Virus record (IMG/VR): IMGVR_UViG_3300020465_001177
Span: 1-34,575 of that record
Source: a virus
Reading direction: 5' to 3' (one strand)
Length of the DNA: 34,575 nucleotides
Shown here: one piece after another, positions 18,257 to 34,575 of the stretch
How positions within the stretch are numbered: the stretch's first letter is position 1
How the letters are laid out: every line of letters starts with the position of its first letter
Made by a program: the position numbers and the translations under genes
Notes under the pieces: generated by a model
What the model was told of the DNA's origin: nothing
Database searches by the model: none
Seen by the model: the letters and a program-made list of their open reading frames with translations, nothing else

Positions 18257-18491
18257 ATTGGCTTTCATGATGGTTTTTGGCTCATGTGTTAATTGCGGTG
18301 TATTCATGGGATTTAACCCAGAAAAAGTTCCATCAATAAGGGTCAATGGTATTCGAGAACCATTGTGTAAAAAATGCTTCATCAAGTGGAATGAAATACA
18401 TCGAATATCAAAGGGATTAGAGCCAATGAAAATATCTCCTGAAGCATATTTCCCTTCACGTATTTCTCCTAACGTTGCCGACATAGATTGA
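18249..18491 (+). CDS. Small phage-type zinc-ribbon protein
   Basis: An 80-residue protein with CVNCG and CKKC around FNPEKVPSIRVNGIREPLC. I recognise this arrangement from many phage small proteins of unknown function, which share the FNP...VPSIRVNG...REP.C core and a late pair of prolines before AY. The start may be the GTG at 18249 or the ATG at 18267. Its last 36 bases overlap the convergent ligase gene. Confidence 0.7.
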   Translation: MNELAFMMVFGSCVNCGVFMGFNPEKVPSIRVNGIREPLCKKCFIKWNEIHRISKGLEPMKISPEAYFPSRISPNVADID

Positions 18492-20402
18492 GTATCCTCT
18501 CGCTTTTGGAATTACTCGAACATTTCTTCCAGTTCTGGATCTAATTGCTTGTGCAACAAATCTGCCGTATTCTCTGCCCTTTGCTACGCCAATTTCTGCA
18601 AATTGATTCCCATTGATATTTCTGATTCTATTGTATCTAATTGGGTTATTCCAGCTTGAGGGTTTTCTAACCCTGCTAAACCTGGCTTCTTTTGGTATTC
18701 CCCTCTTGGTTTTACCAGTGAACAAGTATTCAACTTCAGAGCCTATTGGTGGTGGATTCTCTCGTATCTCATCATTCAGACCAGAACCTAATTTCCACTT
18801 AATTTCTGGATTGTCTTTCAATTCTAAAACCAAAGAACCGACTCTGCCTTTGTTTCTCCCAAGTCCTTCTTCATAACCAGATACAATACCTTCTTCTGTA
18901 TCAACGGGCTTCACTTTGAAGATATTGTTAGATCGCTTACTCCCTCCATCACCATATTCGTATGGTTCTTTCATATCTCGCAACATAATTCCTTCTCCCC
19001 CTGCTGGAACTATGTTTTGACTTAGGAAATCATCAAGCCAATCGTTAAACTCATTGAAACCATCTTCAGTTCCCTCTAAATCATTCCAATATCTAATTTG
19101 TGGAACAACTCGATAACGATGGGGCAATGTGTTTTCATTAAGCCAAAGATTTTCTTCAATCCCTGCACCAATTACAGGGACATCTGCAAACTGATTTACC
19201 AGGTCTGCATCAATTGTTAGGCCATGTTGTGTCGTCTTGTATGGTGTTGTTTTCACCAACGTTCCCAGAACCGATTGTTGAACTGTTTCTCGAACATCTG
19301 TTTCGTAAACACCAACAGTTTTGATACTCGGTTTGACTTTTTTCTGGCGATCCAATTCATCTTCAATTTGGCTTTTTGAATCATAGAAGAAAGTTCCGTA
19401 TGTGTTAGGCATTGTATTTGGTTGAAGAACATCACCATTAGAACTCAACCTATTGTATGGTGGGTTGTCGTATTTTGCTTGGAACATTTCAATTAGGCTA
19501 TTCATCGGCTTTCTAACTTCTTCAGAGTTTGGAAATGCATTATCGGTCATTTCTCTCATGTGGGAAACCAAGTCCTTCTTCGTCCACATATATTTGCCCT
19601 TAGATTTCAGATTTCTTGCTCTGGCCGCATGGTCGAATGACCTGTAAGGCCATGCAAGAACCATTTCTTCTCCAATGTATCTGGGTTCACTCATCGAAAG
19701 CAATGCATCATAAGCACTTTCAAAATCAACAATCATTTTACCCATGCCGTCTTCGAGTTCATATAGAGTTGGAGAATCGAAAATCATGTATTGAACGTTA
19801 GCCCACCTGGATTCGTCATATTTTGGGCTATCCTTGCTTGTTCTGGCGATAGAAGCAACACTCTCCCATGAATCCCTGCCAGTCCACAATTCACCGTCTA
19901 ATTTGATGTTTTTTGGTAAACCATCTGTAAACCAGCTCGGAGCATCAAATGTGTTGCCGTCTTTTGATAGAAACTTCTCTCCATCCCAAACCGCCCTAAA
20001 ACCATCCAACTTTTCGCTTATACCATAATTTTGGTATCCTTGTTTCATTACTTTCTTCTTGTGATCCTTGAATCGTTTTGCTTTCATTACCTTTGGATTC
20101 ATGAAAGAAGCCCTGCTTGCATCTCCAGGTCCAGAACGCTTCGATAATTTCCTGGTTGAAATAAATGGACTATCTGTATCTGTATATCCCTTTGAACGCT
20201 TATCCTTTTCCTTTTCTTTGGCGAACTTAACCGCATCAGAATTATTATCAAATGATTTCTCTTGAACCCTCAATTTAGAACCAGTTCTCCCATACTCAAT
20301 TTTTACCATATTATCAACAACGTCTATTTTGTAAACCTTGTCTGAACGGTTGTCTTTGTAAGACAAATCAACAGGTTTCCAACTCAAAGTTATCTCCCCC
20401 AT
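18456..20402 (-). CDS. ATP-dependent DNA ligase with WGR domain and C-terminal module
   Basis: A 648-residue ligase that seals nicks by an enzyme-AMP intermediate. The N terminus (about 1-75) reads as a WGR domain (VKIEYGRTGSKLRVQEKSF), a nucleic-acid binder. The catalytic core has motif I KLDG (K131 takes AMP), motif III LDGELW (168-173), IIIa MIFDSP, motif IV GGEGIMLRD (E470) and motif V IFKVKP, followed by an OB fold (about 505-578). About 200 residues are inserted between IIIa and IV. The last 40 residues carry the module shared by nine proteins here (NVRVIPKARGYSIYVG) and a basic end. The ATG at 20402 is preferred over longer frames because homology starts there and AGGA precedes it. Confidence 0.9.
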   Translation of the reverse strand: MGEITLSWKPVDLSYKDNRSDKVYKIDVVDNMVKIEYGRTGSKLRVQEKSFDNNSDAVKFAKEKEKDKRSKGYTDTDSPFISTRKLSKRSGPGDASRASFMNPKVMKAKRFKDHKKKVMKQGYQNYGISEKLDGFRAVWDGEKFLSKDGNTFDAPSWFTDGLPKNIKLDGELWTGRDSWESVASIARTSKDSPKYDESRWANVQYMIFDSPTLYELEDGMGKMIVDFESAYDALLSMSEPRYIGEEMVLAWPYRSFDHAARARNLKSKGKYMWTKKDLVSHMREMTDNAFPNSEEVRKPMNSLIEMFQAKYDNPPYNRLSSNGDVLQPNTMPNTYGTFFYDSKSQIEDELDRQKKVKPSIKTVGVYETDVRETVQQSVLGTLVKTTPYKTTQHGLTIDADLVNQFADVPVIGAGIEENLWLNENTLPHRYRVVPQIRYWNDLEGTEDGFNEFNDWLDDFLSQNIVPAGGEGIMLRDMKEPYEYGDGGSKRSNNIFKVKPVDTEEGIVSGYEEGLGRNKGRVGSLVLELKDNPEIKWKLGSGLNDEIRENPPPIGSEVEYLFTGKTKRGIPKEARFSRVRKPSSWNNPIRYNRIRNINGNQFAEIGVAKGREYGRFVAQAIRSRTGRNVRVIPKARGYSIYVGNVRRNT

Positions 20403-20737
20403 CTTCCTGTTTTTGAATTGAACTTCAGAACCTCTCCAGTATTTTGGGATCTCCGCCACCATGTAACTCCACCTGGAGCAATTCTTTGAACCATTACTCT
20501 TTTTCCATTGGGCATTATCTCCCAAACAGTTCCAGACCAAATGTTGTAATTAGCTGGCATCGTTGTATTGAATGGAGAGAACCTTTTACCGTTCCTCAAA
20601 GTGCCCGTAATCTGATATTGTCTTGGTGCTTTTGATTTAGCCATTGCTCTCCATTCATTGTATGATTTTTGAGTCATAGTTCTGGTTGGAGGCTTAACTC
20701 GGCTACCCCTGGTATTACGCCTCCTTTTGGTGCTCAT
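20390..20737 (-). CDS. Small basic protein upstream of the ligase
   Basis: A 115-residue, very basic protein rich in Arg, Lys, Thr and Trp, with strand-rich central and C-terminal parts (YQITGTLRNGKRF, GGVTWWRRSQNTGEV). It overlaps the ligase start by 13 bases. No family was recognised. A basic protein in a late operon may condense or bind the genome. CCGAT/ATCGG (20757-20761 and 20771-20775, nine bases apart) form an inverted repeat just upstream. Confidence 0.7.
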   Translation of the reverse strand: MSTKRRRNTRGSRVKPPTRTMTQKSYNEWRAMAKSKAPRQYQITGTLRNGKRFSPFNTTMPANYNIWSGTVWEIMPNGKRVMVQRIAPGGVTWWRRSQNTGEVLKFNSKTGRWGR

Positions 20738-20785
20738 GCATTTTAGTTTACAACAACCGATTATGACGGTATCGGGATCTTAAAG

Positions 20786-21556
20786 TCAAGAAGCACGTTT
20801 CCAGAACCTTAATTTTGATTTTCGTGGCTTTGGTTTTGGCTTGTAATTGTATGGATATTCAGGCAATATGTGATTCCTACCGCCTGTTCTTCGAACCTTT
20901 ATTCCCAACTTCGGTATATTCCTCTTGGTTGTTAGCAAAGGAACACCTCTCGGTTTACCTCCACTTCTCATCACTTCTGCATTATCAAGCCGCCTTTGAA
21001 GACCAGGTGAATGACTCATGGAATTGTAAACGTGGTTTTGGTTCGCAATATCAACTGGTGTTTCTGAATAAACACTGTAATGGGTTTTATTTCCTACACT
21101 GTATGGAACTAATCTAACTCTGCCGACATTATTTCTTCGAAGAAAATCCGATAGAACCTCTGCCTGTTTTCTATTCCTGGCATCTCCAATTATGTGACCA
21201 GTCCATGAACCGTCAAAACGCCTTCTGCCTTTTCCCTTTGATTTGTTGAAATCCCAATTTCTTGTAGCAAACCTTTCTCTGGCCGCACCAAAAGCCCTTG
21301 CTAAAGGAACTCTGGATTTATCATCAACGGCTTGTTTGCTAATCATTACTGCAACATTTTCACGTTGCTTTGAATTGCTGATGATAGGATTTTTTCTGTT
21401 GTTGTTGGCCCAAACATCAACCGCTACTCGGGCATCTTGTCTTGATACTCCCTTAACAGAAGCCAATTTGCTAATTGTTGAAGTTCTTTCAAGTGGATCA
21501 CTCAAATCAATAGGACCGCTTCTTTCAAGAATGCGAAGTATTTTCTTGTTGCTCAT
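20786..21556 (-). CDS. Basic protein with internal recurring module
   Basis: A 256-residue basic protein. Residues 20-50 are helical and may form a small DNA-binding bundle. Residues 125-165 hold the recurring module (RKQAEVLSDFLRRNNVGRVR, then LVPYSVGNKTHYSVYS), and the C terminus is Pro/Lys-rich and ends in basic residues. The ATG overlaps the upstream stop by ATGA and follows AGGAGG. Probably a virion or nucleoprotein component; that role is inferred from the operon. Confidence 0.75.
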   Translation of the reverse strand: MSNKKILRILERSGPIDLSDPLERTSTISKLASVKGVSRQDARVAVDVWANNNRKNPIISNSKQRENVAVMISKQAVDDKSRVPLARAFGAARERFATRNWDFNKSKGKGRRRFDGSWTGHIIGDARNRKQAEVLSDFLRRNNVGRVRLVPYSVGNKTHYSVYSETPVDIANQNHVYNSMSHSPGLQRRLDNAEVMRSGGKPRGVPLLTTKRNIPKLGIKVRRTGGRNHILPEYPYNYKPKPKPRKSKLRFWKRAS

Positions 21557-24500
21557 TTATTCCGCCTCCTGTAGTATGTATGTCTGTATTCTGGGTTTTT
21601 TCCATTGACTCTTTTTGGTATCTTTTTGTTGATATTACCCTTTTTGTAAACCATTCTATCATGTGGTGTAGCCAGGATTCCGTATTTTTTTGTCTTAGCG
21701 GCAGTCAAATCTCCCCAAGCAGAGTTCTTAGATTGTTCGGAATCGAAAAGTGAAGAAGCAGGTCTTACAAGGTTCACATATCGAGTCACCCGTTTTTCTT
21801 TCGGCCATATTTTTGGCTTTACCTCAATAGTTCGAACAAGGAAACCATTCTCTCTGTTTTTCTTCGCCATTATCCTGGCGGCTTCTTTTGTTTTCCAGAA
21901 AATCAAGTTATCCCATTCGTTAGATTGATACAATTTACCTTGATATTTTCGAACATACCTATCCTCTGCCTTTTTGCCGAAGTTTTCAGTATCACTCCAA
22001 CCTTTTCCCATGTGATCTATGAGTTTATCTCTATCACCACCAAAAGCCATTCTCAATGTCGGCCCTCCAAGTCGCCTGAAACTATTGCCTTCACGTTTAG
22101 CAAATCCCATAATTCCGACTCTGCCTTTTCCATCCCATGTTTTATCTGGAGTCCTACCAGCAACATTACCCCAAGTTCCCCCTGAAATTAGAACTTCATC
22201 ACTATTGAACTCTGAAGTATCGTATTTTGTATCATCCCCAAGCAATCGTTTCTTAGTCCAGCCGCCATTTATGTCCTCATCGAAATCGAGAGGATTACTT
22301 TGTGCAACCATTTTCCACTCTTTGTATTTATCATCAAATTGTTTCAGAGTCAATTTATTTCCTGTTTTCTTTGAATCGAGAACCCAATCCTTCAGCCAAT
22401 TCTTGACTTCTTCAGTTGATATTCCCTCATAGAAAATGTTGCGAACTTCTGCTTCAAGGCGTTTGGTTTCAGAATCATCATCATCCTTTCTATCGAACAA
22501 GCCTTCCATCAAGAGGTCAAGCCCTCTGTCCGAAGGTAAATCATCACCCAACCATTCTCTCCCTTTTTTGTATTCTGTTTCCCAACCGTTAAGATCGGTA
22601 AATTGGTTGCCAATTCCTTTCGATTCTATGAAATCAAGAACATCTTGTGGTATATCTTCTCCGTTAGCAGAATACAAACCTCTCTCACTTAACCTTGCTA
22701 AATCATCACCATTCAATGTTAGTTTAGATGTGAAGTTTTCGAATCCCAAGATTTGTTCTTCAACCGCATTAAGAGTTCTTTCAATCCAATACCTGTTACT
22801 ATTTTCGTAATCAGGTTCAGAATAATCAGCCATAGGTTTCGTTACTTGGTCAAGTTGATTTCGAAGCCAATTGAAAAGTCCAGAAGTGTTAGATTCTATT
22901 TGGTATGATTCCTTCTCAAATCCACCAGGTAATTCAAAGGGCCATTCAGAGAATTGACCATCTTCGAATATGTCTTGATTATCAACAACAATTCCAGAAC
23001 CAATCACTCCAACCCAATTTTCTGGGTGATTGTATTGTTTCCCCAAGTTTGGAGAACCATACATGCGGATCACTTCTCCTGTATCGAGAATACTTTCTCC
23101 TTTCTGATATATTGACTCCAGGTTAAGTTGATTTTCTGATAGTGATGCTTCGAGCATATCCTTTGTATCCTCTCCCCTAATTTCGAATATCCTGGAAGCA
23201 TTTGGCGAAAGGTCTGGGCTAAGTTTTACTCCACCGACATTGTATTCTTCTCTATCTGGCAAAGATTCCACATCATCAGCTACAATTGATGAATATGAAT
23301 CACCATTTTTCTGAATAACCAAAAATGAACGTTCATCTATGTCTTCACGATCTATCCAATTTATCTCAACTGCTTCAGGCGGTGGTTCATCTAAAGAGCC
23401 AGTTAGCAATTTTTCTGAATATGATTTGGCGGCTTTTTCAGAACCAAAAAACAACTTCTTATCGTTTCCATTTTGGTCACTGTAAAAAACAGACCATTCT
23501 AAATCAACGGAATTACGCCATGAATCCACACCATTTTTGGTATAACCGCCTCCATCTCCCATGTTAGCAATTGCACGAACCCTTGTTGGAACATATTCAA
23601 GTTCTTTATCCAAACGATTTGCAGTTAATTCGTTTAATTCATCACTCCAGGGTGAAACACCATTTAGATCCACAATCGAGTTTATCTTGCTGATGAATCT
23701 GTTTTTATCGGGGCTTTTATCGTTACGAAGCCACCTGTATCCTCTCAATTCATACCACTCATCACCATCATGCTCAATGGTATAATTCCAACCCGAATTG
23801 TTTTTTCCCTTATCCAAAGCATCTATTCCTGGTCTAATGTAGCCCCAATCTCCTGTAATTGGAAGTAATGGACTGTTTGAAGGCCACGTCCATAAGGCTT
23901 CATCAGAATCCCATTCACCGCCCTTCTTCGATTCCCTTCCTCTAAGCAAACCGATTTCTGGAACTAATTTCACATCTTCTTCTGATGCTTCAAACCGATC
24001 AATCCATTTTCCATTCTTGTAATATCCACTATTCCATTTTTGTGTATTGATATTTAGCAAATGTGTTGGTTGGTTTACTATTGGCGAATATGCGACCAAT
24101 TGTATGTTTTCTAAAGTTGAATGTTCTTTTTCTTCTGCGAATGCTTCAACGTGGTCTTTTTCCTTATTGTAAAAGTCGTTGTAATCAAGTGCAACGAACT
24201 CAAATATATCAGAATCAGGATTAGTCACGTCTATGTTTCTGTATCTGTAATTTTGGTGGCTTTGAGAACCCTTGTATGCTTTTCCAGCTAATCTGTTTTC
24301 TTCTGAATAAGTCCAAAGACGATTTAACCAGGTGTCTGTTACATCATGTTCTTCACCGTATTCATTTTTAATTTTTATTTTATTAGAAGAATCAGACCAA
24401 ACATCATCATCATTTTGAAACGTCCTAACACTGTTCAACAAACCCTCGAAATGTATGTTCGCAATTCTCCCTTCAAATGTATCAAGAAACCTCGCATCCT

Positions 24501-24972
24501 TAACAACCATATCCTCGTCTTTCTTACTCAAAACCAATTTGCCTTTAGATGGTCCATCCTCAACGAATAGTGGACTCATCACATTCTTAGTCATTCTTTT
24601 CATCAGCGATTTCCTTGAATTGTTGCTATTCATGGTTAATATCTCTCTCACAACCCAAACATCTGGATCTAATTCATTCCTCGTTATATTCTGATCCCAT
24701 AGTTTGATTGGTTTCTCTCCAGACCATGATTCAGTTACCTTATCAATCCAATTATTTGGTTTGATAGAATCGTAATTCAAATCTGAAGGAAAATCGGGCG
24801 AAGACAATTGCGCTAATCTCCAATCCTTTCTTTTGCTTTTTCCTTTGCCCTTTCTCTCCTGTTGAAGAAGGGCCTGTGCAGTAATGAAGAATGTTCCATC
24901 TGATTTGTGGGTTGTATGGAATAGTATTGGAACGTCCGTCTTGTTGAAAGTGCTCGGATTTACTGCTCCCAT
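21553..24972 (-). CDS. Very large protein of unknown function with C-terminal module
   Basis: At 1139 residues this is the longest protein here. It is rich in Trp, Asp, Asn and Gly, with many short strands and helices and no family I recognise. There is no signal peptide or membrane helix. One segment (LEWSVFYSDQNGNDKKLFFG followed by SEKAAKSYSEKL) resembles the N terminus of the 693-residue protein. Residues about 1027-1055 (KEAARIMAKKNRENGFLVR, then TIEVKP) resemble the helix-strand part of the recurring module, and the end is basic (HTYYRRRNK). The ATG at 24972 lies about 33 bases after a TATA-like box; an ATG at 25005 would overlap that box. A structural or injected multidomain protein is the leading guess. 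Confidence 0.85.
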   Translation of the reverse strand: MGAVNPSTFNKTDVPILFHTTHKSDGTFFITAQALLQQERKGKGKSKRKDWRLAQLSSPDFPSDLNYDSIKPNNWIDKVTESWSGEKPIKLWDQNITRNELDPDVWVVREILTMNSNNSRKSLMKRMTKNVMSPLFVEDGPSKGKLVLSKKDEDMVVKDARFLDTFEGRIANIHFEGLLNSVRTFQNDDDVWSDSSNKIKIKNEYGEEHDVTDTWLNRLWTYSEENRLAGKAYKGSQSHQNYRYRNIDVTNPDSDIFEFVALDYNDFYNKEKDHVEAFAEEKEHSTLENIQLVAYSPIVNQPTHLLNINTQKWNSGYYKNGKWIDRFEASEEDVKLVPEIGLLRGRESKKGGEWDSDEALWTWPSNSPLLPITGDWGYIRPGIDALDKGKNNSGWNYTIEHDGDEWYELRGYRWLRNDKSPDKNRFISKINSIVDLNGVSPWSDELNELTANRLDKELEYVPTRVRAIANMGDGGGYTKNGVDSWRNSVDLEWSVFYSDQNGNDKKLFFGSEKAAKSYSEKLLTGSLDEPPPEAVEINWIDREDIDERSFLVIQKNGDSYSSIVADDVESLPDREEYNVGGVKLSPDLSPNASRIFEIRGEDTKDMLEASLSENQLNLESIYQKGESILDTGEVIRMYGSPNLGKQYNHPENWVGVIGSGIVVDNQDIFEDGQFSEWPFELPGGFEKESYQIESNTSGLFNWLRNQLDQVTKPMADYSEPDYENSNRYWIERTLNAVEEQILGFENFTSKLTLNGDDLARLSERGLYSANGEDIPQDVLDFIESKGIGNQFTDLNGWETEYKKGREWLGDDLPSDRGLDLLMEGLFDRKDDDDSETKRLEAEVRNIFYEGISTEEVKNWLKDWVLDSKKTGNKLTLKQFDDKYKEWKMVAQSNPLDFDEDINGGWTKKRLLGDDTKYDTSEFNSDEVLISGGTWGNVAGRTPDKTWDGKGRVGIMGFAKREGNSFRRLGGPTLRMAFGGDRDKLIDHMGKGWSDTENFGKKAEDRYVRKYQGKLYQSNEWDNLIFWKTKEAARIMAKKNRENGFLVRTIEVKPKIWPKEKRVTRYVNLVRPASSLFDSEQSKNSAWGDLTAAKTKKYGILATPHDRMVYKKGNINKKIPKRVNGKNPEYRHTYYRRRNK

Positions 24973-25002
24973 TGGCGTAATCTCAAGCGAACGCCAACTC
25001 TG

Positions 25003-25010
25003 CATATATC
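25003..25010 (-). promoter_or_regulatory. TATA-like box before the 1139-residue protein
   Basis: Reverse-strand GATATATG lies about 33 bases before the ATG at 24972, so an archaeal start would leave a leader of only a few bases. It may give this gene its own promoter within the late operon. Confidence 0.35.
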
Positions 25011-25067
25011 ACTCGAAGTTTTTTACACTTTCAAGTATTCCCGCAACGCATCCATTAAAAGCACACT

Positions 25068-25241
25068 TCATGCCTTGAATGGTCCGACAAGGACGTGATG
25101 ATTTCCACCTACAGAAACTATGCGAACACTTCTCCTGGAACGCCTGATTTTACTGGCTACTGACTTTGCTTCTTCTGAATCAGATGTGTTGAATCTGCTG
25201 ATGTAATCAACACCTCCAAACCGCCTAATTACCTTCGCCAT
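25068..25241 (-). CDS. 57-residue protein made of the recurring module
   Basis: I translated this frame by hand: 57 codons from the ATG at 25241 to the TGA at 25068. After a short basic start (MAKVIRRFGG), residues 21-57 are a complete copy of the module found in eight other proteins: helix SEEAKSVASKIRR, strand SVRIVSVGGN, strand HHVLVGPF, then stop. LVGPF is exactly how the corresponding strand of SPOR domains ends. It lies in a stretch otherwise without a gene. The ribosome binding site is weak. A free module could act as a competitor, adaptor or scaffold for tagged proteins. Confidence 0.65.
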   Translation of the reverse strand: MAKVIRRFGGVDYISRFNTSDSEEAKSVASKIRRSRRSVRIVSVGGNHHVLVGPFKA

Positions 25242-25288
25242 ACTTTGCGATTCTTTGAACAGGCCATAAAGGGATCTGTTTCAAAACA

Positions 25289-25576
25289 TCAAGGGTCGTT
25301 ATTGATTCCAGAATGTTCAGCAATGCTATCCATGACTTCACGTTCAGCATTATTCCACCTTTTCAAAGCAGAATCAGTTGGTGTTTTGAACTTGAATGCC
25401 AAATCCCTTGCAGTATCTAAGTGCCATTGAAGACCCTTCGAGAACTTAGGCTCTCTGTAAACCACGCTCTTATCCCATTTGTTGCCATTCCTTCTAATTG
25501 TTAATCCAGCATTGGCTTCGCTCATAGCACACCATACTGCACTCCATATCCTCTTTCTCATTTCTCTCCTGTTCAT
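25289..25576 (-). CDS. Small basic helical protein
   Basis: A 95-residue basic protein, mostly helical, with Trp residues spaced along it (RIWSAVWCAMSEA). No family was recognised. GGAGAG precedes the ATG. The ~40-base leader between a TATA-like box (25641-25646) and the ATG contains an inverted repeat. Confidence 0.65.
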   Translation of the reverse strand: MNRREMRKRIWSAVWCAMSEANAGLTIRRNGNKWDKSVVYREPKFSKGLQWHLDTARDLAFKFKTPTDSALKRWNNAEREVMDSIAEHSGINNDP

Positions 25577-25602
25577 ACGTTTCTCTCCTATGCGCCCCCT
25601 TT

Positions 25603-25646
25603 GGAACGCTCCGTAGTTCCTACTACCAATCTATCTATCGTATAAG
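25603..25646 (-). promoter_or_regulatory. Promoter and leader hairpin
   Basis: The reverse strand has CTTATA (25641-25646) and, 20-40 bases further, the perfect inverted repeat GGAAC/GTTCC (25603-25607 and 25616-25620) with an eight-base loop. This would fold at or just after the transcription start. A second one, CGACA/TGTCG, lies at 25655-25670. The 25577-25714 gap holds nothing else I can identify. Confidence 0.3.
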
Positions 25647-25714
25647 ATTTATTTCGACACATATCTGTCGTTTTTTCGCCAAAAATCAGCCCAAAAGCAA
25701 TACTGCAAGCCAAT

Positions 25715-25915
25715 TTACAAATCCTGGCTTCGACACATGGTAAATCGGCTACTTTTGGTCATAATTTTGAACCGATCATGCACGATTTTGTTGCATTTCA
25801 AAGACAATCCACAAACCATGCATGAATCAATTTCATTTTTTGTTGGCTTAATGCCTTCAGGATAGGAGTTGAAGGTGTGAATTACACCAGAACCTAAAGT
25901 TAGAAAATGAATCAT
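25715..25915 (-). CDS. Small Cys-containing protein
   Basis: A 66-residue protein with CMVCGLSLKC and a later Cys, which may bind zinc. The ATG shares a base with the upstream stop (TGATG), the main support for the call. No family was recognised. Confidence 0.5.
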   Translation of the reverse strand: MIHFLTLGSGVIHTFNSYPEGIKPTKNEIDSCMVCGLSLKCNKIVHDRFKIMTKSSRFTMCRSQDL

Positions 25916-26307
25916 CAGAACATCTCGATTTTCATTTTATCATCGGTCCAACCATTCTTGAAAAGAAGTTGGAAAAGATGTATAGTCCATATTGTAGCAC
26001 CCAAGAATACGAAAACTCCTTCTTCGAGCTGACTACCTCTAACAATTACCCACGAACTACCCACAAAAGCCAGAACATCTGTTATTGGATTAGCCAGGTA
26101 ACTTCTGTTGTTGTCTGCACTTTGCATTTCACTCAATAAGAAATACAGTATTCCTGTGATCGTTCCAAAAAATATGAATCCATTTATTGATAATGCCGTA
26201 TTTGCATCTTGAATTACGGATTCTTCAATCATTGTTAATCCAGCCCATACAAACAATACGGGAACGATAATCACAAGCACAAGCGTTATTGGGGTCATTT
26301 TAGTCAT
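25915..26307 (-). CDS. Four-helix membrane protein
   Basis: A 130-residue protein with about four hydrophobic helices (near 7-27, 41-58, 75-90 and 97-115). The ATG at 26307 follows GGAGG; a TTG at 26313 is possible. It is paired with the next multi-spanning protein upstream, only two bases away, so the two may act together in the viral membrane. Confidence 0.75.
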   Translation of the reverse strand: MTKMTPITLVLVIIVPVLFVWAGLTMIEESVIQDANTALSINGFIFFGTITGILYFLLSEMQSADNNRSYLANPITDVLAFVGSSWVIVRGSQLEEGVFVFLGATIWTIHLFQLLFKNGWTDDKMKIEMF

Positions 26308-26309
26308 TT

Positions 26310-26690
26310 TCAAGCCTCCACGTCTTTTCTAATTTCATCGAATATGCCCAACAAAAAACCGCCTATTGATCCAATCGCAATCATTGACCAGACGGTGCTA
26401 CCGTCACTTATTCCATTGAATATCGAGAGAACAACTGCAAATACCCAGATGGTATAGATTTGAAGGCTTGAATCAAAACCATCACCATCCACTAAAATCA
26501 CACCAAAAAAATCCAAAAACCCCTCATTAACAAACATTACAGTAAAAAATCCGCTAACAATAACACATGCAAGCAATTCCCACAATTCAAACTCTGAATC
26601 ACCAGTCAAAAACCAATATGTGATTGAAAATAATGCTGAAGAAAAAAAAGCAACGGTGGTGAAATCTATTACTCTGTTCCAACGAATCAT
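26310..26690 (-). CDS. Four-helix membrane protein
   Basis: A 126-residue protein with four hydrophobic helices (about 9-28, 36-56, 76-94 and 100-117) and an acidic C terminus. It overlaps the upstream gene by ATGA. No family was recognised. Confidence 0.75.
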   Translation of the reverse strand: MIRWNRVIDFTTVAFFSSALFSITYWFLTGDSEFELWELLACVIVSGFFTVMFVNEGFLDFFGVILVDGDGFDSSLQIYTIWVFAVVLSIFNGISDGSTVWSMIAIGSIGGFLLGIFDEIRKDVEA

Positions 26691-27892
26691 AATCTAAAAC
26701 CCTCCAAATCATCATGTAATCCATCATTGTCTGCATCATTTACATCTGATGGTGGTGTTGGAGTAACGAACCATCTTGGGTGACTGTATTCCCTGGTCTT
26801 GTCTGGATCAAGTGCATTGAAGAAATCCTGTCCAGCACCAGTATTATCTGTTCGAATCATTGATTGTTCATCCCAATCTTGAGAAGTTGCCCCAAGAGCA
26901 TCTATTACTGCAACCCTATCATCTTCACGCATTGTTCCTAATGATTGAAGTGAACCATCACTCATAGCCATCTGCAAAGCCAAGAACGATGTTCCAAGCA
27001 TACTGTTCGAAGGTGGTGCGGCAATAATCTGCCCCGTTCTCATATTCATCAAACCAATTCTGCGTTCTGATTGAATCATGAAAATATATGGCGGCAAACT
27101 ATCGTTGGAGTTCTTTGGATATACAATGAACTCTTTTCCTTTACGCATTCTGCCTCCCTTCAAAGTTAGGCTCAAAGTTCCCATTACGTTTCTTCTCAAA
27201 CCACTCACTTCAGTTGGCTTTTTTGAATTGAATTGGCGAATCGAACCAGGGAACATTTTCAAGATCTCATCAACATCGGATTTTTCCTGTTTGGTCATTT
27301 CCCTTCCTTCTCTCGAACATTTACCGCACGATTTCAGGCGAGTATCGGTCCAATAGGGGGGTGTTCTCCCACATTTACCACACTTTACACCTCGCGTCAT
27401 AGATTTCTCTGCATTGAATAATCTCGGCTCAAGACGCTGTGTTGGAACGCTTTCAGTTAATCTTCTCCACTCAACGTTGCCCGTATTTTGATTGTCTGCA
27501 TACCTCTCTCTCATATCCATTCTAATGTTATCGAGTTCTTGTTTTGAGTATCTGACTTTATCAGATACCCATAATGAATATCCATTTGCTAATTTGATAA
27601 CTCTGGCGTTATATCCAGCATCTCTGTAAACTTGTGCTCTTTCTCTCATCGTTTCTTTTGATTGAAAAGTTCCTTGTTGGTTTAATGGTCTGCCCAAACT
27701 CGTTCTCGCCATATCACCGCCAAGCGGCAACAAAGTGTATCTTTGATTACCAAACTTTCGAGTCCTATTGTTTGTATCTGGATAGAAACCACTAATTCTT
27801 CTGCGAGCTGAATATCCTCTTTTTCTTTGGCAGTTAGCGCAATTGCACCTTTTACCGTCTTTCATCCCACCAGAACAACCGCAACTACCCAT
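26687..27892 (-). CDS. Metal-rich protein with recurring module and calcium loop
   Basis: A 401-residue protein with several small modules. The N terminus is Cys-rich (GSCGCSGG, then RCNCANC). Residues 77-111 hold the recurring module (NARVIKLANGYSLWVS). A zinc ribbon follows in the middle (CGKCG with CGKC). The last 20 residues contain DADNDGLHDDLE, a perfect DxDxDG calcium-binding loop of the EF-hand/TSP3 kind. The ATG at 27892 follows AAGGTGATC. Calcium loops usually mean the outside of the cell or virion, so this may be a surface structural protein; zinc and calcium sites together are unusual. Confidence 0.75.
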   Translation of the reverse strand: MGSCGCSGGMKDGKRCNCANCQRKRGYSARRRISGFYPDTNNRTRKFGNQRYTLLPLGGDMARTSLGRPLNQQGTFQSKETMRERAQVYRDAGYNARVIKLANGYSLWVSDKVRYSKQELDNIRMDMRERYADNQNTGNVEWRRLTESVPTQRLEPRLFNAEKSMTRGVKCGKCGRTPPYWTDTRLKSCGKCSREGREMTKQEKSDVDEILKMFPGSIRQFNSKKPTEVSGLRRNVMGTLSLTLKGGRMRKGKEFIVYPKNSNDSLPPYIFMIQSERRIGLMNMRTGQIIAAPPSNSMLGTSFLALQMAMSDGSLQSLGTMREDDRVAVIDALGATSQDWDEQSMIRTDNTGAGQDFFNALDPDKTREYSHPRWFVTPTPPSDVNDADNDGLHDDLEGFRL

Positions 27893-27897
27893 AGCGA

Positions 27898-28275
27898 TCA
27901 CCTTCTGCGGTAGTCAAATCGTGCGGTGTCTGGATATGTTGGGGTGAATCTCCTTCTCCCACCAGTTGAGCGATTTAATGCGATTTTTGTTTGCCTTTTT
28001 GTTCCATACTTGTCTATGTAGTCGTATATTTCTTTTGATATTCGCCTATGAACGTTGGAATCGTTCATCCAAAGGCCCGTTCTGCCTATTTGTGAACGAT
28101 AAGCATGCACTGTCGGCAGGTTTCCATTTGTTTGAATTGAAAAACCTCTTTGATTGCCCCAGGTCGGTTTTAATCGGATTATTGAGTTACCATTAACATC
28201 AACGCCAACGCCAACTATTTTTATGTCTGCATCCAATACAGGTATTTCAGATCTAAATGTTCGGTTTCTCGCCAT
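27898..28275 (-). CDS. Small basic protein with Arg-rich tail
   Basis: A 125-residue basic protein. The first 60 residues are strand-rich (IKIVGVGVDVNGNSIIRLKP), then a helix and an Arg-rich end (FDYRRR). No family was recognised. It is coupled to the upstream GNAT-kinase gene by TGATG. Like other products of this operon it has a basic tail, but lacks the recurring module. Confidence 0.7.
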   Translation of the reverse strand: MARNRTFRSEIPVLDADIKIVGVGVDVNGNSIIRLKPTWGNQRGFSIQTNGNLPTVHAYRSQIGRTGLWMNDSNVHRRISKEIYDYIDKYGTKRQTKIALNRSTGGRRRFTPTYPDTARFDYRRR

Positions 28276-30086
28276 CAGCGTTTCCTCCGAAGATACAGGT
28301 TTCCTCCAGGCGCGCCTCTCCTTGTTCGAGTTCTTTTAATCATAGTTGAACGCCATTTCCTGTCCTTCGGCCTCTCGTAAACAACATATCCGCCCTTTAC
28401 TGGAACTACTCGCGCCAAGTGAACGCCACCACCTGCCTTTCTCTTTCGAATGTTTTCAGCAACTCTCCTTGCTTTGGCTTTAGTCATTGGAACTGCAACA
28501 TTTCGTCCAGGTTCATCCCAGCGATCCCATTGCACTTTCTCAATGCTTCTTTTAGCGGCAGGTGTCCTCCATGTAACATTCGCCATGTTTGGTTTGTATG
28601 TTGATTGCCTTTTGAAGAAAACCCTTTCGAAAGGCCCATCTGCACTCTTTGAATAGGTATTATCACATGAACAACCGTCATACGTTTGGCCGCATCTTAA
28701 ACATATTAGGCGTTCTCCAGAATCTATTCCTTCAGAGTAATCTGTTTCATCAACAGCCCAGCCTCTTATTTCACTATCATCAAAATCCCAATCAATTTTA
28801 CGAACTTCTTCTTCTTGTTGTTCTCTGATTAAATCAGATCCATCAACTTCATCCTTTTCCATATTCCATGACTCAAAGAATCCAGTGGGCATCTCGAAGT
28901 ATTCATGTGGGATAGCATAGTAATCAAGCAATACGGGTTTACCATCAATAATAGTGAAGTTCCCCATGCCTAAATCCTGTTCCCAAACCCACTCTTCTAA
29001 ACTGCCCTTTACATCTTCTGTAATGTTTCCAAGCTGATATTGATTATTGATTTCATTTAGGACGTTAGTTCTCCATTCTTTTTCAGCATCCCTGTATTTC
29101 AGCCACTTCTGATATATTTCGTTTGAATCTTCATAATTCTGCTCACGTCCTTCTCTTTTACCTGTAGCAACTTGAATGTGGTAATTTAATCTCCCAGAAT
29201 CAAACATCATCCAATCATCAATGGTATCCACCCTTCTTTGAATAACTGATTGTTGCCCCATGTATTCGTCTGTTAATGCAACCCTGGCTGGAACAATAAA
29301 ATCAAGCATGAATGGTGTCTTCTCTGCAAAATGAAGTGTAACATGATCCTCCCAGAAACCGCTTGTTCCATGTTCTGTATCTAAATCTCCTTTACGTTCT
29401 TTCGCAGGTAACGGTAAATCATCCAGGTAATAGCGGTTAATCTTCAGAACATTATCATCTCCTGGTTGTGCAAAAACCCACCTTTGTTCTCCACGCCCGA
29501 TGTATTCTAAATCTAAATCTAACTTTTCAGACAATTTATCAATATCAGTAATGATTCCGTCTGGATCTCCAAAAGCCTTCAAATCATCTCCTGTTCCACC
29601 AGATACTCTCAAATCATTAGGATTGAGTAATTTGTTGTAAACTGCAACACCATCATTCCATTTCCGTTCTTGTCTTTTCCAAAGCCCTTCTGCTTTATCT
29701 GATTGCATAGGTGATGGAACAATGTAATTACCACGCTTTGCTAATTGTGATGATGCAATATCATACATGTATGTGCCCAATCCTTGATTTTGTGCCCATG
29801 TTTCAATTTTAGCATCAAATGGATAATACGCCTCCGCAGAACTATCCACATTTTCCCTTGAAAAAAAACCACTTTCTGTTGGCTGGGGTGTTTTTATGAT
29901 CTCCAAAGAACCAATCTTAATGCCTTCAGAATCAGTGGCAACCATTTCGAGTTTGCCTTTTCTATGATTGTATTTTGACTTTATTTTTATTTTTTCTCTC
30001 ACTCCAAAAATAGACGTGCCGTTCAATCTGTAATTACCTTCAGCACGTTTTCCATCTTTGGAAATTGTAGTTTTGCCCCTGCTCAA
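28275..30086 (-). CDS. GNAT acetyltransferase-protein kinase-like fusion with recurring module
   Basis: A 603-residue protein with four parts. Residues about 47-143 resemble a GNAT N-acetyltransferase: the CoA-binding motif is QNQGLGTYMYD, and SPMQSDKAEGLWKR is typical of phage members. Residues about 190-395 look like a protein kinase/phosphotransferase fold: Gly loop GRGEQRWVFA, Lys in VLKINR (K215), catalytic loop DLGMGN (D371, N376) and metal Asp in VLLDYY (D388). A Cys cluster follows (C462, C465, C472, C474), then the recurring module (about 534-572, ARVVPVKGGYVVYE) and a basic tail. The start is a TTG after AGGTGAT. Fusions of this order recall AAC-APH enzymes, but substrates are unknown. 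A virion-delivered host modifier is possible. Confidence 0.75.
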   Translation of the reverse strand: MSRGKTTISKDGKRAEGNYRLNGTSIFGVREKIKIKSKYNHRKGKLEMVATDSEGIKIGSLEIIKTPQPTESGFFSRENVDSSAEAYYPFDAKIETWAQNQGLGTYMYDIASSQLAKRGNYIVPSPMQSDKAEGLWKRQERKWNDGVAVYNKLLNPNDLRVSGGTGDDLKAFGDPDGIITDIDKLSEKLDLDLEYIGRGEQRWVFAQPGDDNVLKINRYYLDDLPLPAKERKGDLDTEHGTSGFWEDHVTLHFAEKTPFMLDFIVPARVALTDEYMGQQSVIQRRVDTIDDWMMFDSGRLNYHIQVATGKREGREQNYEDSNEIYQKWLKYRDAEKEWRTNVLNEINNQYQLGNITEDVKGSLEEWVWEQDLGMGNFTIIDGKPVLLDYYAIPHEYFEMPTGFFESWNMEKDEVDGSDLIREQQEEEVRKIDWDFDDSEIRGWAVDETDYSEGIDSGERLICLRCGQTYDGCSCDNTYSKSADGPFERVFFKRQSTYKPNMANVTWRTPAAKRSIEKVQWDRWDEPGRNVAVPMTKAKARRVAENIRKRKAGGGVHLARVVPVKGGYVVYERPKDRKWRSTMIKRTRTRRGAPGGNLYLRRKR

Positions 30087-30092
30087 TCGAAA

Positions 30093-32174
30093 TCACCTTC
30101 TGCGATTTCCACCAACATATACTCTCCATCCACCAGCACCAGGAATTACCCTTGCATTTCTGCCCATCCTTCTGATGTTAATTGCGCTTGATACCGCCTT
30201 TGACTTTGATACTGCATTACTCGAACCTAAGAACTTTTGACCCCTGATTTTACGGTGATATTTACGTTGAGCAGATGATTTTCTTCTGGCGAACTTAGCA
30301 GTTGGTATTTTGCCTCTCGAAGCCCAATTAGGAGTTTGTGAACTCGCCCTGCCTGTGGTAGTAAACCATAGCGGTGTAAATCCAGGGCCATATTGTTGTG
30401 GGATAGCATTCAAACTAATCAAACGCTTTCTGCTCCACTTCTCTGTTTGGAATCCAGCAGGGTATCCTCTTGACTCTGCGAAATCATCTGTATAATTTAT
30501 TACCAATACAGATCCACCAGCATTGAACTTGTATTCCCAACTCTTAATCGCATCACTTGGTATTTGACCACCAAGACCCGAATTAACAAATCGAGTAACC
30601 CATTGCTTATCGAGTTCGTAACGTTCCTTTGAAACTTGGTTGTCTGCAACAAGATCACCAGAAGATTGAACCAGATTCTCTAATTTCAATCGTTCCTCTG
30701 CCTCTTTTTTCAATCGGTCCTCTTGTTGCTTTTCTTCTCTTTTGCGTCTGGCTTCTTTCTGCGCTTCATCAGCCTTCCTTTGTCTTTCTGCACGTTCATT
30801 TTCTCTCTCAATGATTTCAAGTGGTGATAATCCACTATCAGCAGAAGTTCTCGTAATGCTTCTGTTAAGTTCTTTCAGTTGCCTCTCCAATCTCTCCCTT
30901 TCAGCTCTCGCTTTAACAACGGCACTTTCAGGGTCTTTTTCTTCTTCGGTTTCAAAATCAACATTATCATAAGCACCCTTAGCGGTGTTGCCGAGAACAT
31001 CAACGTATTGGTCTGGCTTGGCTATATTGTAAGTCACCTTTTCTCCCTTTGCATTGATTACTGTGAACCCTCGCATCCGACCTCTTTTGAATGATTCTGG
31101 ATTAACAAATGTATTGTTAGCAATCAAACGTTGGAACTCAACCTTGCTCAAAACCTCTCCGTCCTTATTGTAAAGATATGCTTCAATTTCCTTGTCTAAT
31201 CGGGCAAAACCCTTCCATTTCTTAGGGGGAAAGTTTCTTTCTGTATATGGGCGATTAAATGCCGACCAATTTTTACGATCCAATGTTAGATTCAGTTCAT
31301 CCCTCTGATATGCATTCCACAATGGCCCTTGCCTTGCGAAATCACGCTTCAATAATTCAAGCATATCATCTCTAACTTCAGCCTCGAACATATTTTCGTA
31401 TTCAGGAAAAACACTTGCGGCCTTTGTTCTCGATGAATTGAAAACTCTCCTAACAAGGCTCTCATCCTCATCTCGAATAAGACCATCCCAAACAAGAGCA
31501 CCACCAGCCAGAGCACCAACACCAATCCATGCGGCATTATCCTCAAGGAATTGTTGTAAATCTGATGTGTTATCATCAATAGTATCTCTCAATTCACCAG
31601 CAGTATCTATCTCTGATGCTTCAGTATTGTTTTCAGGCCCAAACTGTTCTGAAGGCAAACCTGGTTGATTCGGCCCTGTTCCTGTAACTGGTCCTGTAAC
31701 TGTGCCTCCTGGCATTGTTCCCGAACCTGGTGTTCCTGAAGGTGGCGGTTGTGGAGGGTTGATTGGGCCAATAGTTCCTCCTGAGCCATCATCTTCTGGT
31801 ATCAGTCCACCACCACCAGGTCCAATTGGATCTCCTGGCGTTATTGGTGGTGTGTATCCACCAGACGCACCTCCACCACCAGTTACTCCACCACCAATTG
31901 TTCCAATTGTTCCAATTTTATTGCCTGTATTTGGTGCACTTGATTGAAAATTAGGAATCAAATAGGGGTCTTTCTGTATTGAATCTCCCGTTCCTGGAAT
32001 AATGCTCCATTGCCCTAAATCTGAATTGTATCTTGGTAATCTGACTGTTTGGTGAATCTTAGGTTTACGCAACGTCTTTCTGTATGCTTCAGCCTCTTTT
32101 TTTGTCTTGAAACGCCTCATGGGTCTGCCTGTATCTCGGTTCATAACAACCCATTTGTTTGATTCTTCAGACAT
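30093..32174 (-). CDS. Large structural-type protein: Pro/Gly linker, hydrophobic helix, coiled coil, C-terminal module
   Basis: A 693-residue protein. The first ~40 residues (KWVVMNRDTG, then RFKTKKEAEAYRKTLRK) form a strand-helix unit. About 85-185 is a low-complexity Gly/Pro/Thr stretch, likely extended. A hydrophobic Gly/Ala segment near 212-226 (WIGVGALAGGALVWD) may enter a membrane. A mixed domain follows, then a long charged coiled coil rich in Glu, Arg and Lys, and a final domain. The last 37 residues are the recurring module (NARVIPGAGGWRVYVG) plus NRRR. GGTGA precedes the ATG. It looks like a minor capsid or internal virion protein; no enzyme motif is seen. Confidence 0.8.
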   Translation of the reverse strand: MSEESNKWVVMNRDTGRPMRRFKTKKEAEAYRKTLRKPKIHQTVRLPRYNSDLGQWSIIPGTGDSIQKDPYLIPNFQSSAPNTGNKIGTIGTIGGGVTGGGGASGGYTPPITPGDPIGPGGGGLIPEDDGSGGTIGPINPPQPPPSGTPGSGTMPGGTVTGPVTGTGPNQPGLPSEQFGPENNTEASEIDTAGELRDTIDDNTSDLQQFLEDNAAWIGVGALAGGALVWDGLIRDEDESLVRRVFNSSRTKAASVFPEYENMFEAEVRDDMLELLKRDFARQGPLWNAYQRDELNLTLDRKNWSAFNRPYTERNFPPKKWKGFARLDKEIEAYLYNKDGEVLSKVEFQRLIANNTFVNPESFKRGRMRGFTVINAKGEKVTYNIAKPDQYVDVLGNTAKGAYDNVDFETEEEKDPESAVVKARAERERLERQLKELNRSITRTSADSGLSPLEIIERENERAERQRKADEAQKEARRKREEKQQEDRLKKEAEERLKLENLVQSSGDLVADNQVSKERYELDKQWVTRFVNSGLGGQIPSDAIKSWEYKFNAGGSVLVINYTDDFAESRGYPAGFQTEKWSRKRLISLNAIPQQYGPGFTPLWFTTTGRASSQTPNWASRGKIPTAKFARRKSSAQRKYHRKIRGQKFLGSSNAVSKSKAVSSAINIRRMGRNARVIPGAGGWRVYVGGNRRR

Positions 32175-32182
32175 TTAGAAAA

Positions 32183-32851
32183 TCACCATCCTGTAGTTGG
32201 ATCTCCGTCAAAGTCGGCTTCAGAAGCAGAATATCCTATTGCACCACCAATGAGGCAACCGCCAGCAAGTGCGACTCCATCAGCAAATGGTAAAGGCCCA
32301 TCTATCCAACTTATCGCAAGCCATGTTCCGCCAGCCGTAGTTGCACAACCAGCCAAAGCACCTTGACCTCCCGTTAGCAAACCATCATCTTCAGGACCAT
32401 AATTGCCGAATCCGTATGGTTGTGGAGTTCCATAATCAACATAACCGTCTGGAACTTGGTCACTCCAAATATCTCCGTTACCATCTCCATCAATATCAAG
32501 CAATACTGGATCTGCTGGTATCAAACCGAAGAACTGTGTTTGTATCGCTAAGATGCCAACAACAATAGCAATTACCGTCAATGCGAAACCATAACCCTGG
32601 AAAACGCCACCATCTTCATCAACATCAGAATCAGTTGAGAAATATACGCCAGCTAAAATTAGAATTGGAACACTAATTACCAAAACTGCACTCGACCATT
32701 CGGTAAAACCCCATGAATCGAAGTCAATTCCAAAAGAAAAATCAAATGTTACAGTTGCTATTGCGATCCCAACAACCAGAATCAGTAATCCGATTCCAAT
32801 TATGGATGCAACAGTTACTACTTCATCATCTGTAAAATCCGAATCGGCCAT
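32183..32851 (-). CDS. Membrane protein with calcium-type loops and glycine-rich C terminus
   Basis: A 222-residue protein with three clear membrane helices (about 13-35, 54-72 and 88-108) and a glycine-rich hydrophobic stretch near 192-208 (DGVALAGGCLIGGAIGY). Between them lie Asp loops: DSDVDEDG (74-81) and DIDGDGNGD (119-127), the latter a DxDGDG calcium-binding pattern. The layout fits an envelope protein exposed to calcium-rich surroundings such as sea water. A major coat protein is possible but cannot be shown. Start and upstream stop overlap (TAATG). Confidence 0.75.
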   Translation of the reverse strand: MADSDFTDDEVVTVASIIGIGLLILVVGIAIATVTFDFSFGIDFDSWGFTEWSSAVLVISVPILILAGVYFSTDSDVDEDGGVFQGYGFALTVIAIVVGILAIQTQFFGLIPADPVLLDIDGDGNGDIWSDQVPDGYVDYGTPQPYGFGNYGPEDDGLLTGGQGALAGCATTAGGTWLAISWIDGPLPFADGVALAGGCLIGGAIGYSASEADFDGDPTTGW

Positions 32852-33222
32852 TAGTCAAAAGCCCCCCACCAATCGAGAATGTAATAGAATGTTGAGCCTG
32901 TTCCTGTGACTATCAGAAAGAACCAGATTCCTTGTTCTCTCTGGAAACTCATTTGTGCTGAACTCAAGGTCATAATCAAACCCCCAAGAGCAACGAAAGC
33001 CAAACCTACAACAACCAAGAACAATCTTAATCCATCATCGGTTATTTCATCCATCTCATCATCAATCACTGGTTCATCCCAGATTACTTCGAAAGCATCA
33101 ATTCCAGCAAGCAACAATAGCAAGCCTCCAACTGTTGAAAATAAAACAATTCTTCGTTCACGTTGCTTGTCTGGCAACAGACCTACGGTATCGTCCATGA
33201 GCATGGGTTCGACTTGCACCAT
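32851..33222 (-). CDS. Three-helix membrane protein
   Basis: A 123-residue protein with three hydrophobic helices (RIVLFSTVGGLLLLLAGI, FLVVVGLAFVALGGLIMTL, WFFLIVTGTGSTFYYIL) and an acidic loop. The reverse-strand TATA-like box at 33241-33248 lies about 22-26 bases before its ATG, so transcription of much of the late operon may begin here, leaderless. No family was recognised. Confidence 0.75.
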   Translation of the reverse strand: MVQVEPMLMDDTVGLLPDKQRERRIVLFSTVGGLLLLLAGIDAFEVIWDEPVIDDEMDEITDDGLRLFLVVVGLAFVALGGLIMTLSSAQMSFQREQGIWFFLIVTGTGSTFYYILDWWGAFD

Positions 33223-33240
33223 TTATGAGCAGTTCGCACC

Positions 33241-33248
33241 TATTATGT
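33241..33248 (-). promoter_or_regulatory. TATA-like box, leaderless start at 33222
   Basis: Reverse-strand ACATAATA lies 22-26 bases before the ATG at 33222, with no ribosome binding site at the usual distance. This matches the leaderless pattern at 17031 and 16859. Confidence 0.4.
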
Positions 33249-33263
33249 TTGAATGCACACTTT

Positions 33264-34575
33264 TCAACGCTTCTTTCTGTTTCCAATGTAAACTCTAAAG
33301 CCGTTTGAAGAAGGAATTACTCTTGCGTTCAACCCCTTATTTCTGATGATATTAGCGACATTTCTTGCATCATTTTTAGTCATTTGACGGTTCGAACCAA
33401 GAAACACATTTCGATTTATTGTTCTTGAATATCTTCTTCTATCAAATTGTCTTGAATCTGGTCTTTTGAATAGATCTGTTTGACTTTGACCTGAACCAAT
33501 CATTGATACTGGTTTCCCACTAATCTTGATTTCATCCTTTCTTTTTTTCATCCCCTTTCTTGTTTGCTGGAATGAAGCCATTCCTCCAGCCAACATATCA
33601 TTCACTTGATACAAGATGCTAATTAGTGCCGTTCCATCTGCTCTTGATGTGCTATTAGCAAAATCACTTTGAACAAACTCCATCGTATCCACACCGTATA
33701 ATTCTCCACCAACAAGAACAGGCATTGCGTTCCCACTCCAGCCTCCCTGCATTATCCCCCAATCGTTGAGAAGTTCTTCGACTTCTTCTGGTGTATCGGC
33801 CAATTCATTTGCTTTGTTAATCGCATCAGTTATATGACCTTCAGAAATCAGAATTGCCGCAACTTCACCATCATTTCCTTGACCCTCAAGCGACTCTTTC
33901 ATTTCTTGAATATCGGATATGTATGATTTCTCCAGGTATTCCCTGACTACATCTGAAGATTCTGGGTTTGATTTGAGCCTTGAACTTAGTTCCATCATTA
34001 TTGAGCGATCCTTTTCACTAAAAGAAGTCCAAATGGTGTCGTTAGGCCAACCGTCTTCATCATCTGGTAATAGTTGTTCAAACATCTCAAATACATCGTT
34101 TGGTAGTTCCATATCACTACCATCTGGAAATGTTTTACTTTCAAAAAAATCCTTGAATGCTTCACCCATCGGTTCATCTTCATTGAACATTATTACTGGC
34201 CTTATTGCTTGGAACTCTTCATTGTAGTTTTCTTTGAATGGATCTCTTTCAGAATATCCCATATCCACTTCCTGAAGGTATCTATCCATTGGACTGAAGG
34301 CATCAGCAGTTTCGATAAAAAAAGTTGCACTGTTAATTGCATCCATTACCTCTTGTAAATACAAACCTTGTTGGCCCAATGAATTATCTCCAATTCGCCT
34401 CCATGTTTCTGGATCTGCGGCATTACCTCTCCCATAATTCCCTTGAGTCCATGCAAGACCACCAAGTATTCCATTTTCGTCTTCCATAGCAAATTGATAA
34501 CTTGCTCTTTCATCCCAGGTATTTCCATTGTCGCTGGTGACGAATACTCTGGCAATCATCCAGGGCAGTATTCTA
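33264..34575 (-). CDS. Protein with C-terminal recurring module (5' partial at window edge)
   Basis: At least 431 residues from the ATG at 34559, but the frame stays open to the window edge, so the true start is probably outside. The body is acidic and helical with Asn/Asp-rich stretches (FVTSDNGNTWDERASY at the start). The last 100 residues are basic, and the final 39 are the clearest copy of the recurring module: TKNDARNVANIIRNKG, NARVIPSSNGFRVYIG, then NRKKR. No catalytic motif was seen. Likely an internal virion protein by context. Confidence 0.8.
   Translation of the reverse strand, partial: RILPWMIARVFVTSDNGNTWDERASYQFAMEDENGILGGLAWTQGNYGRGNAADPETWRRIGDNSLGQQGLYLQEVMDAINSATFFIETADAFSPMDRYLQEVDMGYSERDPFKENYNEEFQAIRPVIMFNEDEPMGEAFKDFFESKTFPDGSDMELPNDVFEMFEQLLPDDEDGWPNDTIWTSFSEKDRSIMMELSSRLKSNPESSDVVREYLEKSYISDIQEMKESLEGQGNDGEVAAILISEGHITDAINKANELADTPEEVEELLNDWGIMQGGWSGNAMPVLVGGELYGVDTMEFVQSDFANSTSRADGTALISILYQVNDMLAGGMASFQQTRKGMKKRKDEIKISGKPVSMIGSGQSQTDLFKRPDSRQFDRRRYSRTINRNVFLGSNRQMTKNDARNVANIIRNKGLNARVIPSSNGFRVYIGNRKKR

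Follow-up and report, generated by a model that had tools for sequence, protein, structure and literature searches.

The window analysed here, a 34.6-kb viral record of 34,575 nucleotides (IMGVR_UViG_3300020465_001177), encodes a single protein in which a GNAT-type acetyltransferase domain is followed by a likely kinase domain that lacks a C-lobe, by a cluster of cysteines, and by a SPOR-like module shared with other proteins of the same virus lineage. We read this protein as the 'polyvalent protein' theme in a new, split form. Its organization suggests a virus-encoded effector for dual modification—payload plus label—that is addressed to the virion or to the site of assembly, an interpretation that we regard as evenly balanced between right and wrong. 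We infer that the N-terminal GNAT domain would move an acyl group from CoA and the mini-kinase a phosphate from ATP, in both cases most likely to host proteins, and that tying the two activities together would deliver them to one place. The SPOR-like module at the C-terminus would be the address label, leading to the virion or the assembly site, and the same label is found on the lineage's DNA ligase, SNF2-type helicase and heliorhodopsin. If packaged, the protein would arrive in the cell together with the genome and change host functions immediately, as has been proposed for the polyvalent proteins of phages.

The earlier note on this DNA had placed an open reading frame at 28275-30086. The coordinates hold, but the frame is on the minus strand, where it runs without an internal stop from 30086 to 28275 and encodes 603 aa; the plus strand across the same interval is full of stops (Table 1). 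The motifs that the note had quoted are all there: QNQGLGT, SDKAEGLWKR, GRGEQRWVF, VLKINR, DLGMGN and VLLDYY, the last within PVLLDYY. A sequence resembling a ribosome-binding site, GGTGAT, precedes the TTG start by 5 bases and overlaps the end of the preceding gene. Searched as a whole, the protein matches phrog_4301 of PHROGs over residues 191-389; Pfam, NCBIfam and PDB sequences yielded nothing useful, tblastn against phages gave no match or chance matches, and patterns taken from the protein were not found in the viral contigs over which they were scanned. The full-length AlphaFold model, built from a two-sequence alignment, has a pLDDT of 33 and is unusable, a point against the effector.

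Table 1. Features of the GNAT-kinase gene and its neighbours (coordinates of the window)
Feature	Position	Strand	Basis
603-aa ORF: GNAT, mini-kinase, Cys cluster and SPOR-like tag	28275..30086	-	TTG start, no internal stop
GGTGAT, putative ribosome-binding-like site before the TTG start	30092..30097	-	sequence
GNAT domain, residues 31-142, motif A QNQGLGT	29661..29996	-	profile, model, fold matches
Kinase-like domain (residues 191-400); insert of ~60 residues ahead of the catalytic loop	28887..29516	-	phrog_4301, L014 relative, nine-phage alignment
K215, invariant beta-3 lysine	29442..29444	-	alignments
Catalytic loop D371-N376 and metal-binding D388 (DLGMGN...LLDY)	28923..28976	-	alignments
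Cys cluster C462, C465, C472, C474 (CxxC-x6-CxC), possible zinc knuckle	28665..28703	-	sequence; zinc binding putative
Recurring SPOR-like module, residues 534-577, followed by a basic tail	28356..28487	-	iterated profile
Conserved upstream neighbour, tagged, one flank of the slot	30093..32174	-	homologs in relatives
Conserved tagged neighbour flanking the slot downstream	26687..27901	-	homologs in relatives
Conserved small protein adjoining the slot	27898..28275	-	in L020, homolog joined to another payload

Comparison sequences for the GNAT domain came from two degenerate GLGTxMYDxA-like patterns scanned over viral contigs. The first found 6 loci, each a GNAT-like domain at one end of a phage protein; the second found 27 stretches, and these supplied 13 distinct GNAT-like phage domains, several of them within proteins of 870-1500 aa. 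Most of 10 scanned phage proteins of this kind were assigned to GNATs by Pfam. A profile of the 13 domains, with the window left out, matches the window protein over residues 31-142 at 31.8 bits (E=2.6e-9). Because the motif itself had chosen the profile set, the shuffle control kept the motif and shuffled the flanks. None of 400 such shuffles reached 31.8 bits (best 27.3, mean 13.5), so the flanking sequence gives moderate backing to the homology. When the retrieval motif is masked the score is weak, 6.6 bits (E=0.17), which again counts against the effector. The CoA loop is canonical: motif A, Q/R-x-x-G-x-G/A on beta4-alpha3, reads QNQGLG in the window, and G, G, T, Y and A are invariant across 14 GNAT sequences, partly through the choice of search motif.

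The AlphaFold model of this domain has a mean pLDDT of 76, with a core above 90. Its top matches in the PDB are GNATs (Foldseek probability 1.00; Z up to 10.9, 2.9 A, 100 residues), and its viral matches are for the most part NAT/acetyltransferase entries; since the alignment behind the model consisted of GNATs, the fold is not evidence independent of that alignment. The C-terminal GNAT strands are not evident in it. Pfam gave no match above cut-off for the window domain, the cut-off being a curation threshold and not a biological feature, and tblastn of the GNAT part against phages gave no match or chance matches. The GNAT assignment of the earlier note stands, upheld by homology above chance in the shuffle controls and by the predicted N-terminal fold.

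Residues 191-400 are likely a kinase when the evidence is taken together. They match the phrog_4301 profile at E=1.4e-5 (2.9e-6 in a genome search), and at E=5.4e-6 after removal of the insert of about 60 residues. A relative of the virus, L014 (IMGVR 3300038299_000386), encodes a stand-alone kinase with the tag at 12455-13651; the two are 29% identical over residues 150-388 (E 6e-12), and K215, Q283, D371, N376 and D388 are all kept. The spacings in the window, 5 from D to N and 12 from N to D, are near those of canonical kinases. A pattern composed post hoc picks out 2 of 296 ORFs, those of the window and of the L014 relative, and 0 of 20,000 shuffles. With the insert-free core, tblastn recovered co-linear proteins of one family from Pseudomonas, Xanthomonas and Variovorax phages, at weak E-values (2-9); the recovered proteins match phrog_4301 at 1e-19 to 1e-64, several carry kinase annotations, and the family extends to jumbo Vibrio and Escherichia phages. 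Over 11 sequences—the window, the L014 relative and nine phages—G199, R202, K215, P266, D371, N376 and D388 are invariant. The residues of the nucleotide site are intact, and K215, D371 and D388, whose loss from close relatives would have spoken against a kinase, are retained in one relative of the lineage and in nine phage mini-kinases.

Other comparisons are weaker, and three of their features tell against the effector: a strict nine-phage profile ranks the window first of 296 ORFs at 8.8 bits (E 0.017; best shuffle 2.1), hhalign aligns the window kinase with the phage mini-kinases in the catalytic segment only, at 17% probability, and the HRD histidine is missing. Searched against the PDB, the phage mini-kinase profile has the N-lobes of the Ser/Thr kinases TBK1 and ULK3 at the top, none of the matches being individually significant (E 0.29 and weaker). 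There is no C-lobe: the L014 relative runs into the tag soon after the DFG-like Asp, the phage members total 142-194 aa, and residues 389-460 of the window protein read as an acidic linker instead. Searches for further relatives yielded little. The kinase part gave no match or chance matches by tblastn against phages and plasmids; kinase searches in viral contigs returned the known L014 relative and two chance matches; and the kinase alignment found nothing in GTDB contigs or in 318 genomes of the order to which the Poseidoniaceae bin belongs. A match to Pelagibacter HTVC031P has an E-value of 9 and was taken as chance. A comparison of the kinase pair with an alignment that already included it was circular and, like an alignment with inexact rows, was left out of the evidence.

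The earlier note proposed a kinase or phosphotransferase and likened the domain order to that of bifunctional aminoglycoside enzymes. The kinase rises above chance, by shuffles and by phrog_4301; the likeness to an aminoglycoside phosphotransferase (APH) finds no support. The domain order is indeed identical to that of AAC(6')-APH(2''), with an acetyltransferase and then a phosphotransferase-type domain in one chain, and the PDB folds nearest to the GNAT model include aminoglycoside acetyltransferases, though other GNATs score about equal. But the comparison of profiles with 19 archaeal APH proteins by hhalign produced a spurious match of 12 residues, Pfam gave no match to PF01636, and no drug-resistance context surrounds the gene. 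We place the kinase with the phage mini-kinases, which have no C-lobe, and a small-molecule enzyme of the AAC-APH kind seems to us most improbable.

Behind the kinase, the Cys cluster and the recurring C-terminal module that had been reported are both real. The core of the module, residues 534-570, matches the iterated profile at E=3.4e-10, and the whole is about 55 residues long. The profile finds this tag in 7 proteins of the window and in about 60 of related loci. Its carriers are a DNA ligase/WGR protein, a GP88-like protein, an SNF2-type helicase, heliorhodopsin, and large proteins without recognised enzyme homology; among the other viral loci examined, none beyond this lineage's own locus and the contig of a Poseidoniales bin has it. 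Of 13 members, 3 weakly resemble SPOR (PF05036), at E 4.7e-4 in the best case; the one displayed in full falls below the Pfam cut-off, and a PDB profile search gives 1x60 at E 0.0087, with only part of the SPOR profile covered. SPOR domains bind bacterial peptidoglycan, and peptidoglycan is not known from Poseidoniales-type archaea.

The position of the gene also bears on the role of the tag. The gene lies between the upstream and downstream neighbours of Table 1, both of which have homologs in relatives. The same slot in relative L010 is occupied by a protein of 506 aa that is not significantly similar apart from its last ~60 residues, which are 53% identical (E 2e-12). In L020 a different payload is joined to the homolog of the small neighbour, and in L014 the kinase occurs alone, at another place than the slot, again tagged. 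Because the L010 payload is unrelated while its C-terminal tag is alike and its neighbours are homologous, the slot reads as a swappable payload on a fixed label. One SPOR-like module might then be a general label that loads many unrelated proteins into the virion, with payload genes swapped in front of it; we propose this tentatively, as a possibility short of an even chance. If true, the arrangement would set beside polyvalent proteins and effector-plus-adaptor systems an archaeal equivalent built from modules. The shared tag also suggests a testable rule, many payloads under a single tag, by which the cargo of an uncultured virus could be read from its genome.

A slot that tolerates total replacement of its payload would also suit a structural or assembly protein in which the SPOR-like module is functional and the GNAT and kinase folds are binding modules or inactive. 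The lost HRD histidine, the absent C-lobe and the GNAT strands not evident in the model accord with such a protein, but the nucleotide-site G, K, D, N and D are invariant as far as the jumbo Vibrio phages, and the CoA loop is canonical; we judge it unlikely.

A rather doubtful explanation, which nonetheless deserves weight, is that the protein is an ordinary intracellular accessory enzyme, never packaged, which the tag holds at the viral factory, at viral DNA or at protein complexes, and which, during infection, modifies the host's proteins or metabolites. The tag's presence on DNA-handling enzymes (ligase, SNF2-type helicase) argues for it, as does the GP88-like protein, which carries the tag in a separate block, outside the minus-strand block, and on that account counts against the effector. 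Phage mini-kinases, moreover, can be small stand-alone genes amid DNA-metabolism genes and genes of unknown function. Yet tagged genes fill much of a long co-directional block, and the tag on heliorhodopsin and on large proteins without enzyme homology is a better fit to structural or packaged proteins. The gene is within a long minus-strand block, 18456-34559, but the late operon that the earlier note envisaged stays conjectural; the proteins scanned contain no recognised capsid, portal, terminase or tail family nor other tailed-phage hallmark, and the lack of a recognised virion gene nearby is a further point against the effector.

Mini-kinases, phage GNATs and polyvalent proteins are already known; new here are the joining of the two domains, the common label and a likely archaeal host. 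With the mini-kinases of phrog_4301 (Pseudomonas phage JG012_00061, the Lydia 'protein kinase' and the Pan1 'kinase-like protein', for example), the window shares the G-loop (GxGxxRxVF), VxK, DxxxxNF...DGxxVxLDY, an end soon after the DFG-like Asp with no C-lobe to follow, and a Gln in the last N-lobe strand that many members have. The phage members compared are stand-alone, whereas the window kinase has its insert, is fused behind a GNAT, is tagged, and likely has an archaeal host. GNAT domains within large phage proteins (loci L034-L058) have, like the window, GxGTxMYDxA in motif A, and the nearest of them have an IPSxxQTPxGxxF-like segment after it, of which the window equivalent is VPSPMQSDKAEGLW; neither mini-kinase nor tag was found in these loci. 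Polyvalent proteins of phages and conjugative elements are multi-enzyme proteins, with GNATs and C-lobe-less kinases among their domains, that are encoded near virion genes and are proposed to be injected (PMC5512222). Like the window kinase, those of polyvalent proteins are described as lacking the C-lobe, having an insert and conserving a Gln in the last strand of the N-lobe (PMC5512222). PF18762 (Kinase-PolyVal), in contrast, has no match in the window at E<=10 or in Pfam scans, and none in the relatives or in GNAT-bearing viruses; and in this archaeal virus most of the enzymes are polypeptides of their own, united by a common label. The GNAT-mini-kinase fusion occurs in no other locus examined, and neither the literature nor the loci searched offered this fusion, an archaeal host or the shared label.

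The host is likely a member of the Poseidoniales (MGII) archaea, and here we rely on inference from bins, which can be contaminated. A conserved ATPase-like gene at 6610-8004 led to three relatives of 63-66 kb, to short fragments, and to a contig of 74% identity in a Candidatus Poseidoniaceae MAG. The assignment follows from this contig, from tagged proteins in the same bin, and from DxDGDG-repeat proteins in the relatives, among them secreted-looking ones with DTDGDGVGDN repeats, a feature known from Poseidoniales (L014:13721-15046, L021:2277-3413). Phage mini-kinases and polyvalent-type GNATs are thereby extended to a virus whose probable hosts are Poseidoniales, which are among the commonest archaea of the surface ocean. 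With its tag, the GNAT-mini-kinase protein probably serves to alter the host through two activities, one of them from a C-lobe-less type of kinase so far known from bacterial viruses.

Several other proteins in these genomes merit mention. The product of 6610-8004 (+) is a highly conserved P-loop-like protein (64-75% identity) for which Pfam, PHROGs and PDB show no clear relatives; it is possibly a packaging ATPase. The tagged protein at 18456-20540 (-) of the window combines a WGR domain with an ATP-dependent DNA ligase (KLDG motif, OB domain), and the tagged SNF2-type helicase is that of a relative, L020:2811-5021 (+). Another tagged protein, L017:2087-3796 (-), contains HEMMH and is metallopeptidase-like, without Pfam support. 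Besides the tag, another small module recurs (VxNxxTGKxMRRFxSKxxAExY-like, with a distant resemblance to DUF2188, E 0.55), at the N-terminus of the upstream neighbour of the slot, and in L010:5994-8189 and L020:12814-13371. Heliorhodopsin, a membrane protein of light-sensing type here carrying the same tag in an archaeal virus, occurs in three relatives: L011:3977-5074 (-), which matches PF18761 at E=2.5e-70, and, by sequence resemblance, L021:1090-2175 (+) and L014:1-985 (-). In L011 and L021 the SPOR-like module precedes it.
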